From Vreelandella massiliensis (GTDB lineage Bacteria > Pseudomonadota > Gammaproteobacteria > Pseudomonadales > Halomonadaceae): a DNA stretch of 64,000 nt. The number at the start of each line of letters is the position of its first letter. Within the stretch, counting starts at the first letter, position 1. Below the pieces are notes generated by a model. The model was given only the letters and a program-made list of their open reading frames with translations, was not told the origin of the DNA and made no database searches. Below are positions 58,296 through 64,000 of the stretch, one piece after another. A program made the translations under genes and the position numbers. The stretch is from assembly GCF_900155385.1 (NCBI RefSeq), contig NZ_LT699745.1, positions 1,767,561 through 1,831,560 of the forward strand, written 5' to 3'.

Positions 58296-58754
58296 CTAGG
58301 CAATCGACAGCACATGGCGCACCACGTAGACGGTGATAATCGCCATGACCAAGAACACCAGCGTGGCGGCCAAGGAGCGTGGTGAGAGGCGCGCTAACCC
58401 GCAAACGCCGTGCCCGCTGGTACAGCCGCTACCGATCCCGGTGCCCAAGCCAACGAGCAGCCCCGCGAGCAGCATCAACCCAACACCACCAGCGGGGTCG
58501 CCGACAACCGCATTTGGGGTATCGGCCACATTCCCCCACTCTCCGCCCAACACCATGAGCAGCAGAGGGCCGCTGATCAAGCCCAGCACAAACGTCACCC
58601 GCCAGGCGCTATCACCCTTGGGGCGCTGAGTCACCAAGTTCCCCACGATGCCGCTAATCCCCGCGATACGTCCCAGGGTGCCCATCAGCCAGATCGCTGA
58701 GAGCCCGATCAGTACGCCACCCACAAGGCCTTGTAGACTTGCCGTCCAATCCAC
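58296..58754 (-). CDS. YeeE/YedE family sulfur transport protein
   Basis: A 152-residue protein with four helices and GTGIGSGCTSGHGVCGLARL, the family motif with two Cys. It starts at GTG 58754, preceded by AGGAG. Paired halves of YeeE/YedE next to a persulfide dioxygenase and SulP are a recurring sulfur cluster. Confidence 0.88.
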   Translation of the reverse strand: MDWTASLQGLVGGVLIGLSAIWLMGTLGRIAGISGIVGNLVTQRPKGDSAWRVTFVLGLISGPLLLMVLGGEWGNVADTPNAVVGDPAGGVGLMLLAGLLVGLGTGIGSGCTSGHGVCGLARLSPRSLAATLVFLVMAIITVYVVRHVLSIA

Positions 58755-58808: not shown

Positions 58809-59003
58809 TTACGGATTCTTCGTCTTGCAGGTGCTGATGCCTAGCAGTGAGTAGGCCGGACAGGTATTGAACAGGCCTGTCGCTAGCGGTAACACGCCGA
58901 TCCAGCCCCACACGCCAATGGTGCCGGTCACAGCCAGCAAAATGAGTAGTGCGCCCACGACAATGCGAGCTATTTTATCGAATCCACCGACGTTCTTTTT
59001 CAT
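58809..59003 (-). CDS. DUF2892 (YgaP-like) small membrane protein
   Basis: A 64-residue protein beginning MKKNVGGFDKIARIVVGALL with two helices and the NTCPAYSLLGISTC motif (two Cys). The family is the membrane part of YgaP rhodaneses and recurs in H2S-responsive operons. Confidence 0.87.
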   Translation of the reverse strand: MKKNVGGFDKIARIVVGALLILLAVTGTIGVWGWIGVLPLATGLFNTCPAYSLLGISTCKTKNP

Positions 59004-59035: not shown

Positions 59036-60856
59036 CTATTGCAAAGGGGAAGCGGCGGCCATCGTGGGCGCCGCCTCATGGGTGCCGTTTGCCCACGGCA
59101 AGGTTGACGCATTAGGACAAGAGGCGTGCTCGGGATAGCGCGCGTTGGTTGGCTGCGTCAGGGCCACCCAAGCGTGATAGGTGCTTAAATGAACAAAGCC
59201 GGTCAATGCCTGGCAGAACGCCGTGTTCTGTAAACGATCCATCACCGGGCCTTTCACCTCGGCCAAATGCAGGCTGACGCCGGCATCACTCAACCGCTGG
59301 TTAATCGTCTCCAGACTTTCCAGCGCGGAGGCATCGATGACATTGACCGCCTGGCACGCCAGCACCACGTGTTTTACGTCAGGTTGACGGCTTACCTCGT
59401 CCATCACCGTATCTTCAAGATAGCGCGCGTTGGCGAAATAGAGGCTTTCATCGACGCGCAAAATACACAGGTGCGGCACCGTTTCGACCTGATGACGCTC
59501 AATGTTGCGAAAATGCTCACTCCCCGGCACCCGGCCAATCACCGCGCTATGCGGGCGGCTCGTGCGATAGAGATGCAGCGCTAAAGAAAGGCCCACCCCA
59601 GCGAGAATGCCGCTTTCGACGCCACTGACCAGCGTGACAACAATGGTCGCTAGCATGGCGGCGAAATCACTGCGCGAGTAGCGCCATGTCCGCACGATGG
59701 CGGGGAAATCCACCAGGCTCAGCACCGCGATAATGATCGTCGCGGCGAGGGTCGCAACGGGCAAATAGGCAATCAACGGTGTCAAGACCAGTGCTGCGAC
59801 GCCAATCCCCACGGCGGTAAAAGCCCCGGCCGCCGGTGTTTGGGCGCCGGCATCGAAATTGACCACCGAGCGGGAGAAACCGCCGGTAACCGGCATCCCG
59901 CCGGAAAAGGAAGCCGCTAAGTTGGCACCGCCCAAACCAATCAGCTCCTGATTGGGGTCGATGCGCTGGCGGCGTTTCGCCGCTAAAGTTTGCCCGACCG
60001 ACACCGATTCGACAAAGCCGACAATGCTGATTAAAAGCGCCGCCATCAGTAAGTCACCCCAAAGCCCCGGCTCGAAGCCGGGCAGCGTGATGGGCGGCAG
60101 CCCAGCAGGAATATCGCCGACAACATCGACCCCCTGCTTATCCAGACCCAATTGCCACGTCAGTAGCGTGGTCACGGCCACCGCGACAATGGGCGCGGCT
60201 TTCGTGAGCATGTCCGCCGTGGCGACCGATACACCCATGGCCGTCAGCGAACCTTTCAGCCAGCGCCGTACCGCATAAAGAAAGAGCAGGCTGCCCCCAC
60301 CGAGTAGTAAGGTCGCCCCATGGATACTCCCCGCCTGCTCAACCAGCCCGCTGAGCAGGGTGACCATGTTGTGGCCGCTCGCTTCCACCCCGATTAGGTG
60401 GCGCAACTGACCTGCCGCAATAATCAAGCCTGAGGCGGTAATAAACCCCGAGATGACCGGGTGACTGAGAAAATTGGCCAAAAACCCCAGTCGCGCCACG
60501 CCCATTAACGTCAATATCAGCCCGGAGAGCAGGGCCAGCACCAGCGCGGCCCCCACGTATTCAGGGCTTCCCGGCGTGGCCAAATTGCCCAACGCCGCGG
60601 CAGTCATCAGCGACACCACCGCCACCGGCCCCACGGCCAGTGTGCGGCTGGTGCCGAATACCGCATAGGCCACCAGGGGCAAGACGCTGGCATAAAGCCC
60701 CACTTCCGCCGGTAACCCTGCCAGCATGGCGTACGCTAGCGACTGCGGGATCAGCATGATGGTCACAATCACCGCGGCTAGCAGGTCGCGCGTCAGGGTT
60801 TCCCGGCGATAGTGCGGCAACCACTGGAAAATAGGCAGGTAGCGTTTAGGATTCAC
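59036..60856 (-). CDS. SulP-family anion transporter with STAS domain
   Basis: A 606-residue protein starting at GTG 60856. Many helices of the SLC26/SulP fold (LLAAVIVTIMLIPQSLAYAM, ELIGLGGANLAASFSGGMPV) are followed by a STAS domain (about 440-555, with VDESLYFANARYLED and VIDASALESLETIN). The last 45 residues are unusual. In this setting the likely cargo is sulfate or sulfite leaving or entering the cell. Twenty-seven bases after the dioxygenase gene. Confidence 0.9.
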   Translation of the reverse strand: MNPKRYLPIFQWLPHYRRETLTRDLLAAVIVTIMLIPQSLAYAMLAGLPAEVGLYASVLPLVAYAVFGTSRTLAVGPVAVVSLMTAAALGNLATPGSPEYVGAALVLALLSGLILTLMGVARLGFLANFLSHPVISGFITASGLIIAAGQLRHLIGVEASGHNMVTLLSGLVEQAGSIHGATLLLGGGSLLFLYAVRRWLKGSLTAMGVSVATADMLTKAAPIVAVAVTTLLTWQLGLDKQGVDVVGDIPAGLPPITLPGFEPGLWGDLLMAALLISIVGFVESVSVGQTLAAKRRQRIDPNQELIGLGGANLAASFSGGMPVTGGFSRSVVNFDAGAQTPAAGAFTAVGIGVAALVLTPLIAYLPVATLAATIIIAVLSLVDFPAIVRTWRYSRSDFAAMLATIVVTLVSGVESGILAGVGLSLALHLYRTSRPHSAVIGRVPGSEHFRNIERHQVETVPHLCILRVDESLYFANARYLEDTVMDEVSRQPDVKHVVLACQAVNVIDASALESLETINQRLSDAGVSLHLAEVKGPVMDRLQNTAFCQALTGFVHLSTYHAWVALTQPTNARYPEHASCPNASTLPWANGTHEAAPTMAAASPLQ

Positions 60857-60883: not shown

Positions 60884-61750
60884 TTAAAACGCATTAATCG
60901 GCACTTTAAGGTACACCTGACCGTTGTCATCGGCAGGCGGCATTTCACCGGCGCGCATATTGACCTGCACCGAGGGAATAATCAGCCGCGGCATGCCCAG
61001 GGTGGCATCACGCTCAGCGCGCATTTTGACGAACGCTTCTTCGCTAATACCGTCGCGCACATGAACGTTTTGCGCCCGCTGCTCGGCCACCGTGGTTTCG
61101 TGCTGATAAGCATCACGACCGGGGGCTTTGTAGTCGTGGCACATAAACAGTCGCGTGTGACCGGGCAAGGCGAGCACTTTTTGGATCGAGCGATAAAGCG
61201 CCCGCGCGTCGCCTCCGGGGAAGTCACAGCGCGCGGTACCAAAATCCGGCATAAAGAGCGTATCGCCCACAAAGGCGGCATCGCCGATCACATAGGTTAA
61301 GCAAGCGGGCGTATGCCCCGGGGTGTGCAGCACGCGTCCTTCCAACCCCCCGATGTGAAAGGTGTCGCCCTCTTCAAACAGGGCATCGAACTGGCTGCCA
61401 TCGCGGGCAAACTCGGTACCGGCGTTAAACGCCTTACCAAAGACATCCTGCACCACGGTGATGTTGGCGCCGATACCCGTCTTGCCGCCCAACTGCTCAT
61501 GCAGATAAGGCGCAGCCGAGAGGTGATCGGCGTGCACGTGGGTTTCCAATATCCACTCCACGTTAAGATGGTGCTCACGTACAAAGGCAATAATCTCATC
61601 AGCGGAGCGAACGTCGGTGCGCCCAGCGGCGTAGTCGAAATCGAGCACCGAATCCAAGATCGCGCACGCTTGACTATTCGGGTCCTGCACGACGTAGCTA
61701 AAGGTGTTGGTGGGCTCGTCAAAAAAGGGAGTGACCAAAGGCGTTGTCAT
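60884..61750 (-). CDS. MBL-fold persulfide dioxygenase-like protein (Blh/ETHE1 type)
   Basis: A 288-residue metallo-beta-lactamase-fold protein: metal ligands in THVHADHLSAA, HTPGHTPACLTY, FVGDTLFMPDFGTARCDF and MCHDY. These match the Blh/persulfide dioxygenase group that oxidises glutathione persulfide to sulfite. First gene of the operon. Its own Shine-Dalgarno is absent: the bases before the ATG (CGCGCAAAATCTG) belong to or border the IscB element. Confidence 0.9.
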   Translation of the reverse strand: MTTPLVTPFFDEPTNTFSYVVQDPNSQACAILDSVLDFDYAAGRTDVRSADEIIAFVREHHLNVEWILETHVHADHLSAAPYLHEQLGGKTGIGANITVVQDVFGKAFNAGTEFARDGSQFDALFEEGDTFHIGGLEGRVLHTPGHTPACLTYVIGDAAFVGDTLFMPDFGTARCDFPGGDARALYRSIQKVLALPGHTRLFMCHDYKAPGRDAYQHETTVAEQRAQNVHVRDGISEEAFVKMRAERDATLGMPRLIIPSVQVNMRAGEMPPADDNGQVYLKVPINAF

Positions 61751-61821
61751 CAGATTTTGCGCGGGATACCCGGTACGTCTAGTGCCGGGAGGAATAGCGC
61801 GTCGCTCGCAGAGCGACTGGG

Positions 61822-63210
61822 TTACGCCACCGCTTGCCCCGCTCCTCCTTTCAGTTGGTGAATAGTCGGGGTGAGGTGATAGCCGTAGCCATCACCGCGT
61901 TGGATCACGGTGCAGTGTTTGTGCAAAATGCCTTGGACGGCACCGTGGTCGGTCTGGATATTGAAGCTGCCGGTTTTGCGCACCGCAACACGGCCCGTAT
62001 GCGTGCCCGCTTTCTTGCCGGTCGGCACAATGGCCTTGACCATGTCGCCGGTCTGGAAGCCGTGTACCTGCTTCTGGCGCATCAGGTAGCCGCGTGAAAA
62101 ACCGTGTTTCGTTAAGCGGGTACGCTGGTAGCTGCCGCGTCCGGTGCATTTGATGGTGAGGGTTGGCACTCTCCAGTCGTGCAGCATGTCAAAAGCGCCG
62201 ACGCAGGCCGCGTCCAAGGAGTGAGTCTTGGGAATGTCGAGCCTCTCACGGTTGAATTTGGTGCGACCACCCGTACCCACTGCCACCGGCAGGCCGGTGG
62301 CGTTGAGCGCATTAAACAGCGCCCAACGGGTGGCGTTGACCGCACTGGCATCCCGTAGCGGGCGCTTGAGTTCACGCTGCACGCGCTCCAGCCGCGCGTC
62401 CGCTGACAGGCCGTTAGCCTTGAGGCGCTTTTTCAGGCCTTTGTCGGAGGCGAAAAAAGTCGCCAAGGGCAGTGAGTCCTTGGCCTGATTGCAGTCGTGG
62501 CAGGCTATCGTCAAGTTGCTGACCCGGTCAGAGCCGCCGCTTGAACTCGGCACCACATGCTCAATCTCAAGATGCGTCTCGGTCGCCCCGCAATAGGCAC
62601 ATTCTCGTCCCCACTTCTCCAGCAGGTACTCGCGCACCTCGTAGCCTAGCAGCGTGCCCTGTTGGTACTCGACGCCGCTGATTTCGGGGTTTTCCATCCT
62701 TTGGGTATCAAAGCGCACCAACTCCTGGCTGATCGCGGTGATCGGCGCCAGCCGTGACAGCCGCTCCATCCACGCCATCACCGTATCCACCCGGTGCTGC
62801 AAGCTGGGTGGCAGCCAACCGGCTTTGCGCGTCCGGTTGTCAAAGCGCGGGGCGCGGTAGCGCAGGTTCTTTGACCGGCGACGACGCCGAAAACCACGGC
62901 GCTGTTCCAAGGCTTTCCTGATCTGAAAGCCGCGATGCACCAGATCGAACAGACACAGCACATGCCGCTGTTGGTCGTCTGGTTCGGCACCGTCTGCCTC
63001 GCGCATCAGCGCCAGCCCGGTCGTCTTGCTGCCGGGGTCAATACTCAACCGTAGCGGCTGGGTATCGCCACCCACCCGATCTTTCAGCCGAAGGGTGAAC
63101 GGATAGCGCTTATGCACCACGGCACGCCCGCGCTCCAGCAGCAGCCGAGCGCGCTTTTCGCTGCACGGCATTAACGGCTGCTTCTGTTTATCCAATACGA
63201 AAACCGCCAT
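61822..63210 (-). CDS. iscB: IscB, RNA-guided HNH/RuvC nuclease
   Basis: A 462-residue IscB from ATG 63210, which has AGGAGG at ideal distance. PLMP motif at residues 12-15; RuvC-I D58 (LSIDPGSKTTGLAL); arginine-rich bridge helix (RRGFRRRRRSKNLRYRAPRF); RuvC-II E163 (ISQELVRFD); HNH with C204/C207, H218 and C237/C240 (CAYCGATETHLEIEHVV, CHDCNQAK); RuvC-III H330/D333 (KTHSLDAACVGAF). All catalytic positions are present. IscB is the ancestor group of Cas9 and uses an omega RNA encoded just upstream. Confidence 0.95.
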   Translation of the reverse strand: MAVFVLDKQKQPLMPCSEKRARLLLERGRAVVHKRYPFTLRLKDRVGGDTQPLRLSIDPGSKTTGLALMREADGAEPDDQQRHVLCLFDLVHRGFQIRKALEQRRGFRRRRRSKNLRYRAPRFDNRTRKAGWLPPSLQHRVDTVMAWMERLSRLAPITAISQELVRFDTQRMENPEISGVEYQQGTLLGYEVREYLLEKWGRECAYCGATETHLEIEHVVPSSSGGSDRVSNLTIACHDCNQAKDSLPLATFFASDKGLKKRLKANGLSADARLERVQRELKRPLRDASAVNATRWALFNALNATGLPVAVGTGGRTKFNRERLDIPKTHSLDAACVGAFDMLHDWRVPTLTIKCTGRGSYQRTRLTKHGFSRGYLMRQKQVHGFQTGDMVKAIVPTGKKAGTHTGRVAVRKTGSFNIQTDHGAVQGILHKHCTVIQRGDGYGYHLTPTIHQLKGGAGQAVA

Positions 63211-63508
63211 GCGATTTCCTCCTAAAATAGAACCCTTACGGGTCTGGTATCGCGGGGCTTGCGCCCAGTCTCCCCTCGGGAATGTCGATAACCGGCTCCT
63301 GCCAACGATACTGCTATCGGCAGCGATCAAGACCTTCGGCGTTTTACCTTGCGCCAGCATGATCCTGACCTTTCAGTGCCCACCGCTGAGGAAGAACGGT
63401 GGGGTGAGTCTTGGCGACCTGTTATCAACGTAGCGGGCTGGTTACTGCTCTCCCTGGTCAACCCGGCTTGCTTTCACAAGCCTCTGCCTTCAGGCAGAGG
63501 TAGTTGAC
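63211..63508 (-). ncRNA. Omega RNA of IscB
   Basis: The minus-strand leader of iscB begins GTCAAC (63508-63503), which pairs with GTTGAC about 45 bases on. Inside are two clean hairpins, CCTCTGCC-TGAA-GGCAGAGG and GCTTG-TGAAAG-CAAGC, forming a three-way fold. Further stems follow, for example CCACCG-TTCTTCCTCAG-CGGTGG and TGCCGATAGCA/GTATCGTTGGCA, before the iscB Shine-Dalgarno. This layout matches known omega RNAs. The RNA end is not defined. Confidence 0.75.
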
Positions 63509-63524
63509 AGAAAGCCTCCTGAAG
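63509..63524 (-). other. Predicted IscB guide, equal to the displaced ribosome-binding site
   Basis: The 16 bases 5' of the omega RNA read CTTCAGGAGGCTTTCT on the minus strand. IscB guides of known systems are about this long and come from the flanking host DNA. AGGAGG here would sit six or seven bases before the dioxygenase ATG if the element were removed. Confidence 0.55.
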
Positions 63525-63557
63525 AGGGGAAAAACCGGCAACCAATGAATTGGTACC

Positions 63558-63586
63558 AGTATAACGCAAATAATGTTATATATTTA
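63558..63586 (-). promoter_or_regulatory. Promoter with inverted-repeat operator ahead of the sulfur operon
   Basis: TATAAC (63560-63565) and GTTATA (63575-63580) form an inverted repeat that fills the gap between a possible -35 (TAAATA, 63586-63581) and -10 (TATACT, 63563-63558) on the minus strand. AT-rich repeats like this are bound by ArsR-type persulfide sensors (BigR/SqrR) before similar operons. It would now drive the omega RNA, iscB and, by read-through, the sulfur genes. The rest of 63525-63679 holds no gene. Confidence 0.4.
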
Positions 63587-63679
63587 TACTTTTTTTGACT
63601 ATAAAGCTAGCTGCATAAAACAACACCGCCCAGCCAGGGCTGAGCGGTGTCGATTTTTGGTAGCAATGCGGGAAATGGC

Positions 63680-64000
63680 TTAAAAGCTAAAGACCGGAAT
63701 CGCCGGGTCGCGCATCATTTCCGCCATCGGGCCTGGCGTGGCAACGCCGACGCCTTCTAGTAGATCATCCTCTGCGTAATCGGAATTCGGTAGGTAGATC
63801 GCACACACATCGACCTCAACGCCTTTACCCATAAGCATTTGCAGTAACCCTTCGGGTTTAATCTGCTCCATGGGGTGTCCAGGCGGTGTGTTGACCGCTT
63901 CCTCGCTCGCGTAGCCGTCGACGGCCAAATCACCGGCTTCGTCGCAAAGTAGGATGTGCAGATCCGTGCCCTGCTCCTGCATGGCATTGCTTAAAATCAT
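63680..64000 (-). CDS. DsrE-family sulfur-relay-like protein (N-terminus cut by window edge)
   Basis: The 106 visible residues, ILSNAMQEQGTDLHILLCDE to PGPMAEMMRDPAIPVFSF, fit a DsrE/DsrF-like fold missing its first strand. A Cys occurs in HILLCDEAGD and another in VDVCAIYLPN. It sits just upstream of the sulfur operon. An ATG at 64000 is likely internal; the true start is beyond the window. Confidence 0.75.
   Translation of the reverse strand: MILSNAMQEQGTDLHILLCDEAGDLAVDGYASEEAVNTPPGHPMEQIKPEGLLQMLMGKGVEVDVCAIYLPNSDYAEDDLLEGVGVATPGPMAEMMRDPAIPVFSF

Follow-up and report, generated by a model that had tools for sequence, protein, structure and literature searches.

The window analysed here, a stretch of 64,000 nucleotides of the Vreelandella massiliensis genome, was found to contain a mobile IscB element (IscB/OMEGA, or HEARO) inserted on the minus strand between the Shine-Dalgarno (SD) sequence and the start codon of a putative sulfur-detoxification gene like those for persulfide dioxygenase (PDO). 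IscB is related to Cas9, the enzyme used in gene editing. The account given below, in which this insertion belongs to a wider accumulation of IscB/HEARO elements at start codons, is considered probable, and on comparison of the loci the PDO gene appears to be a clear case of a habit of inserting at start codons that is seen in halomonads, Acidithiobacillus, Sulfobacillus and cyanobacteria. The initial annotation, made from the window alone, had placed the element between the two translation signals and expected it to reduce or rewire translation of the PDO gene, an interpretation that was half right and too narrow.

The element at the PDO gene

On the minus strand the HEARO/omega RNA comes first, followed by iscB, a tail of 71 nt and the ATG of the PDO gene. 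The left junction was found to read ...CCCCTCTTCAGGAGGCTTTCT followed by GTCAACTACC, and the right junction CGCGCAAAATCTG followed by ATGACAACG, with AGGAGGCTTTCT as the host sequence immediately before the first base of the element. The genome holds six full-length iscB copies along with L007, a seventh copy that is broken, and L008, a remnant. The copies were found to start with GTCAACTACC, and the seven with mapped right ends to end with CAAAATCTG (L007 with the variant CAAAATCTA), the adjoining host DNA being unrelated. Since the copies share their ends beside different host DNA, both ends of the element are fixed within an ambiguous boundary G, which can be assigned to the element or to the host and so gives an ancestral SD-ATG spacing of 6 or 7.

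The PDO search covered 82 genomes of the same genus and gave matches in 81, and the 29 top matches from genomes other than the window's own were inspected. The two flanks were adjacent at 29 of the 29 loci, and all of these element-free loci were found to contain GGAGG or GGAG 4-7 nt before the start codon; in L014 the script had chosen a later codon and the SD-ATG pair (5 nt) was taken from the sequence by eye, and in L022 GGAG lies 7 nt before the upstream ATG, the start picked by the script. Joined without the element, the window flanks read AGGAGG-6 nt-ATGACA, and comparison with the empty sites showed an insertion without target duplication. The present ATG is preceded by GTATCCCGCGCAAAATCTG, which contains no SD core. 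The mapped ends and the empty sites bear out what the initial annotation had said of the position of the element, of the adjacency of its flanks in relatives lacking iscB (a non-adjacent pair was not seen at the 29 loci), of an AGGAGG six or seven bases from the ATG of the empty allele and of the missing SD at the present start. Its proposal that the IscB guide would be the ribosome-binding site of the empty allele agrees with the position of the stranded SD, which falls within the stretch of host leader (16 nt) that directly precedes the omega RNA; from known IscB biology this stretch would act as the guide.

The PDO start was found to be ATGA in five of the 29 relatives (L010-L014), ATGC in 23 and ATGT in one (L022), and it is ATGA in the window's genome. 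If ATGA is required, most of the relatives' PDO starts would not be possible targets, since they are not ATGA.

Insertions at start codons in other genomes

Right ends were mapped for 81 IscB/HEARO insertions of halomonads, Acidithiobacillus, Sulfobacillus and cyanobacteria, comprising 52 gamma, 8 Sulfobacillus and 21 cyanobacterial insertions, 17 of the 81 being from genome G038 and 15 from G260. They were obtained from 138 loci (119 of 140 HEARO matches, the weak or partial ones being excluded, and 19 further halomonad loci). For 55 of these the patterns gave no right end, owing to a contig edge or a different type of element, and two more were spurious (L169 and L267). The right flank was found to begin with ATGA in 70 insertions, ATGG in six and GTGA in five, a count that is partly by construction because the right-end patterns demand (A/G)TG(A/G) next. 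When the gamma elements were also examined without that demand, the right-end core was followed by ATGA in 51 of 53 (45 as scored and six whose scored match was a spurious inner one, with the true end then followed by ATGA), the exceptions being L118 and L203; a further 21 rows were without the core. In L118 (G033:C1:82500-87000) the right end is followed by TCTGATCA, not ATGA, with an apparent second element end nearby, and a nested or rearranged copy is possible. In L278 (G321, Bacillota) the flanks would join as GAGAGGAG followed by GTGATG, the target GTGA lying within an extended SD. Genome G038 (loci L169-L195 and others) was found to contain 33 HEARO matches, several of them at contig edges.

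The start test demanded an open reading frame (ORF) of at least 80 codons, or at least 30 where the frame ran off the contig, and, with the flanks joined, an in-frame stop no more than 60 codons upstream. Among the ATGA sites of the window it passed 18 of 18 called starts, 6 of 49 intergenic sites and 41 of 336 in-gene sites, and when an SD core was also demanded the counts were 15/18, 1/49 and 4/336, respectively. By this test 55 of the 81 insertions were found to be start-like. The gamma insertions passed in 37 of 52 cases, against 10.2% of 832 ATGA sites taken from the same flanks as controls, followed by 5 of 8 in Sulfobacillus (11.4% of 88 controls) and 13 of 21 in cyanobacteria (7.0% of 272 controls), where the flank controls are ATGA sites only and 11 of the insertions have ATGG or GTGA.

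An SD was found stranded left of the element in 26 of the 52 gamma insertions, against 3.2% of 778 controls, and 30 of the 52 left flanks contained an SD core within 22 nt of the junction, mostly 6-8 nt from it. The 37 start-like gamma insertions contained the SD core at left-flank positions -17 to -3 in 26 cases, against three at -40 to -26, five at -60 to -46 and none in the right end of the element. For the same four regions the counts were 4/5, 2/5, 0/5 and 0/5 in start-like Sulfobacillus insertions and 1/13, 4/13, 2/13 and 5/13 in the cyanobacterial ones. Over all 52 gamma left flanks, purines were found in excess at 12 to 6 nt from the junction, which is where an SD would sit if the junction were a start codon.

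Forty of the 66 right-flank ORFs (at least 30 codons), chosen by hand, were scanned against Pfam, the PDO being scanned apart. A family was found for 36 of the 40, many matching from residue 1-9, as in PurD (match start at residue 1), cyclophilin (2), alanyl-tRNA synthetase (5), SecG (5; too short for the start test), arginyl-tRNA synthetase (6), YicC (7) and CoxG (7); TrkA, LptA/LptD-type and polyprenyl synthetase families were also found. The genes argS (G019) and alaS (G044) carry start-codon insertions and gave one match each per genome. The joined alaS flanks, ACGGATACCCT followed by ATGAAAAGC, are identical in six of the nine element-free relatives inspected, and the argS junction, CCGGATACCCA(G/C) followed by ATGAAAGA, resembles that of eight element-free relatives of the same genus. 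Both genes are normally essential, and an IscB element at a start codon is therefore compatible with enough translation; some of the host genes hit at their start codons are probably essential.

In the window's own genome, five of seven copies were found at a start-like ATG (the ORFs at L003 and L004 being without a Pfam match), and the other two, L005 and L006, miss the start codon, each lying in a gene leader a little before an SD and start that the gene has kept. The decayed iscB copy L007, whose frame is interrupted by a stop, still lies directly against the ATG of a gene for a polyprenyl synthetase. Short HEARO elements of about 380-730 bp (356 bp in L260) without a full iscB were also found at start-like ATGs, namely L179, L180 and L189 (G038), L204 (G263), L214 (G262) and L248, L251, L259 and L260 (G260), so that the landing rule appears to be independent of the element's own iscB. 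The similar-sized short elements L185, L191 and L243 failed the start test.

Proposed account and its alternatives

In the account considered probable, a mobile IscB/HEARO element was inserted, without duplication as the empty sites show, before the ATGA tetramer that forms the PDO start codon, and would have been mobilised in trans, probably by an IS200/IS605-type Y1 transposase. Accumulation at start codons would follow from the target ATGA/GTGA being itself typical of start codons, from a landing there leaving the coding sequence whole and from the host promoter upstream reading in the same direction as the element. The bias is expected to come partly from the target, because A is enriched at the fourth coding position of bacterial genes (according to the available part of PMC5850271), and partly from selection, because insertions inside genes should be selected against. 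With the IscB guide being host DNA 5′ of the omega RNA, its transcription would have to come from outside, and the element would survive or work best where a host promoter reads in from the left, an orientation that start-codon landing would guarantee. Transcription of the host gene would continue across the element, and translation would still begin at the gene's own ATG without the old SD, with a hand-back that appears to be lineage-specific: an iscB stop in the host ATGA, an SD in the right end or, for the halomonads, a right end that is open, A-rich and without SD. A more far-reaching form of this account, in which IscB/HEARO elements are start-codon-specific passengers that borrow the host promoter for the guide RNA and whose right ends evolved to restore translation (by ATGA coupling or a portable SD), so that essential genes serve as homes, is put forward tentatively. 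If true, it would explain how a guide that lies outside the element comes to be transcribed and how IscB persists in genes that cannot be broken, and it would show how a transposon can remake the translation start of a host gene. For annotation, the start-codon rule would tell where the exact ends of an element should be sought.

The most serious alternative is survivorship only, in which any ATGA is targeted, in-gene insertions are lost and starts are the commonest harmless ATGA. The enrichment of A at the fourth position is in keeping with it, as are the 338 of 408 window ATGA sites that lie inside called genes, and of the 67 ATGA sites in the window where an insertion would leave every called gene unbroken, 24 already pass the same start test. 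After the like-for-like comparison the weight given to this alternative was raised, and that given to the start-codon account and to its more far-reaching form was lowered slightly. Compared like for like, the 37 of 52 start-like gamma insertions exceed these 24 of 67 (Fisher p 2e-4), and with an SD demanded the numbers are 26 of 52 against 16 of 67 (p 0.004), the yardstick being one 64-kb window against 14 genomes. Measured against called starts (27%) the binomial p is 5e-11, but start calls differ between the two sides and the excess is overstated. Gene avoidance accounts for much of the bias and a roughly twofold start excess is left over. Survivorship alone is a real possibility and not the favoured one.

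Several observations weigh against the start-codon account, beginning with the large part of the start excess that survivorship yields. Twelve of the 52 gamma insertions were classed as 'other', some of them genuine starts below the thresholds (L133, L124 and L187, by Pfam matches) and others not starts, and some insertions counted as starts are probably in leaders (L180 and L193). In Bacillota beyond Sulfobacillus (20 loci, 13 with HEARO) the right ends were mostly unclear and no clear rule was found; RRXRR was matched in 30 of 299 Bacillota genomes, and these loci were excluded from the counts, their right ends mostly not being fixable. IscB was found to be rare across the Pseudomonadota, with matches in 3 of 398 genomes, the two genomes over the cut-off both belonging to the window's genus and one of them being the window's genome. 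The element contains no Y1 transposase gene and is too small for tnpA, and two such genes were found elsewhere in the genome. The halomonad right end contains no SD and no visible means of ribosome recruitment.

A plain knock-down, in which the PDO gene without its SD is hardly translated and a second PDO-like gene covers the function, is unlikely. Such a gene, 51% identical, was found in the same genome (G000:C2:1342146-1342991) and fits this explanation together with the missing SD. Against it, the PDO ORF is intact, with a dN/dS of 0.037 against G039 and G022 (0.069 between G039 and G022), values that are gene-wide averages at high dS (about 1.2) beside an undated insertion, and PDO still looks to be under constraint. 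The insertion at PDO need not be recent, since even the nearest other copy in the genome shares only 89.7% identity with the element, and the same arrangement was found at argS and alaS. As to the expected effect on PDO translation, rewiring is likely, the gene now lying 1.76 kb behind the promoter side, after the omega RNA and iscB; a necessary reduction is not upheld in view of the argS and alaS insertions and the low dN/dS, and lower PDO translation after the loss of the SD is plausible.

The right ends were found to differ among lineages. In L207, L208 and the truncated L209 of Sulfobacillus (G262) and in L202 of Acidithiobacillus (G263) iscB lacks a stop codon and its frame is closed by the TGA within the host ATGA (3/8 and 1/2 mapped right ends, respectively), a 4-nt overlap junction for which the available part of PMC6728339 gives strictly coupled translation in 13 of 14 tested pairs. 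The Crocosphaera-type right ends, CTGGAGGTATAAAG or a close variant, contain an SD directly before the host ATGG in six distinct insertions (L217=L067, L220=L068, L221=L073, L222=L071 with GGAG only, L069 and L072). In halomonads the iscB stop was mostly found 64-92 nt before the ATG, with 115 nt at argS in L114. Termination-reinitiation, in which ribosomes finishing iscB restart at the PDO ATG, would need an overlap or a distance within about 20 nt, as found in the four Sulfobacillus and Acidithiobacillus loci, but the PDO start lies 71 nt from the iscB stop. In six tested pairs, coupling was nearly abolished when stop and start were about 20 nt apart (PMC10666635, in the part available), so that the halomonad gap appears too long for reinitiation, and this explanation is given little credence at PDO.

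That initiation at the open, A-rich halomonad right end is independent of an SD is a guess. Folding predictions made the occupied PDO start a little more open than the empty one (mean unpaired 0.70 and 0.59, respectively), and predicted structure thus does not forbid initiation there. Loss of ribosome access through folding was rejected on the same prediction. A frameshift or read-through fusion of IscB and PDO was dropped, the shared tail sequence counting as a single observation; in most halomonad copies the tail has no stop in the ATG frame, with exceptions such as L043, L110, L127, L189 and L190. No promoter was found in the right-end tail by a sigma-70 consensus scan of 61600-63720, which gave zero matches and also missed the host promoter side. 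A PDO start elsewhere with its own SD is highly improbable. In its favour, the frame of the ATG stays open for 47 codons upstream; against it, the listed ORF (first ATG, GTG or TTG after a stop) begins at 61750 and the relatives have an SD before the corresponding ATG.

Known systems and features of the locus

The element was found to share with IscB/OMEGA (HEARO) systems the RRXRR-HNH protein and the HEARO RNA 5′ of the gene on the same strand, with no difference in kind, and it would also share the guide position in host DNA 5′ of the RNA and the target-side motif at the other flank. ATGA and GTGA insertion sites were reportedly described by Weinberg in 2009. IscB elements are already known, and the literature searched mentioned neither the start-codon rule nor right ends that would restore translation: no statement on IscB elements at start codons was found in the open-licence literature, outside which Weinberg 2009 and Kapitonov 2016 fall. 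The available parts of PMC13180657 and PMC9755519 contain one mention of a start codon, that of IscB itself, and the available part of PMC9755519 contains no mention of Shine-Dalgarno. According to these parts (PMC13180657 / PMC9755519), OrufIscB has NTAAA as its main target-adjacent motif (TAM) and NWRRN as non-canonical TAMs, and engineered OgeuIscB has NWRGNA. The right flank ATGACA fits NWRRN and not NTAAA or NWRGNA, motifs that come from other IscBs and may not be the TAM of this one.

IS200/IS605 elements share with the IscB element the lack of target duplication, the hairpin near the right end and a fixed tetranucleotide (TCAT/TCAC on the opposite strand), whereas the IscB element has no room for tnpA and its target is a start codon and not an arbitrary short word. 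The iscB genes that stop within the host ATGA resemble overlapping operon genes (ATGA, TGATG), but their overlap was made by landing and not inherited with an operon, and the halomonad element has none. IStrons are likewise mobile elements with a built-in softening of the effect on the host gene (PMC4227781, in the part available); they splice out of the RNA, whereas the IscB element is expected to stay in the transcript, at the start codon.

The features of the locus are collected in the table. The IscB protein was found to match PF14239 (RRXRR) with 247.6 bits, and its HNH families exceed their own cut-offs. The PDO product was assigned by Pfam at the superfamily level only (metallo-beta-lactamase), and the name persulfide dioxygenase was taken from the initial annotation and the sulfur-related neighbour genes.

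Table. Features of the PDO locus, given as positions in the window
Feature	Position	Strand	Basis or remark
Terminator-like hairpin after the preceding ORF	63621..63652	-	14-pair stem followed by a T-run
Promoter-side A+T-rich stretch	63558..63590	-	7-nt inverted repeat AGTATAA...TTATACT
Stranded SD AGGAGG of the PDO gene	63515..63520	-	sequence and relatives' loci
Host leader of 16 nt, CTTCAGGAGGCTTTCT, at the IscB guide position	63509..63524	-	directly 5′ of the HEARO model start
IscB element, 1758 bp	61751..63508	-	sequence, RNA model and genomic copies
HEARO/omega RNA	63264..63508	-	RF02033, 97 bits (cut-off 83), model 1-211
SD AGGAGG of iscB	63218..63223	-	sequence
iscB, 462 aa, RRXRR and HNH	61822..63210	-	Pfam families
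Right-end tail, 71 nt, iscB stop to host ATG	61751..61821	-	CCCGG..CCGGG hairpin; without SD core
PDO-like metallo-beta-lactamase gene	60884..61750	-	ATG abuts the element
SulP-type sulfate permease, next downstream gene	59036..60856	-	Pfam
YgaP-like membrane protein	58809..59003	-	Pfam
YeeE/YedE-like sulfur-transport protein, weak match	58296..58754	-	22.1 bits, below the curated cut-off of 27

The inverted repeat upstream of the element is a possible operator. Similar A+T-rich stretches were also found to precede the PDO gene in the relatives, the stretch in the window resembling those of L010 and L011.

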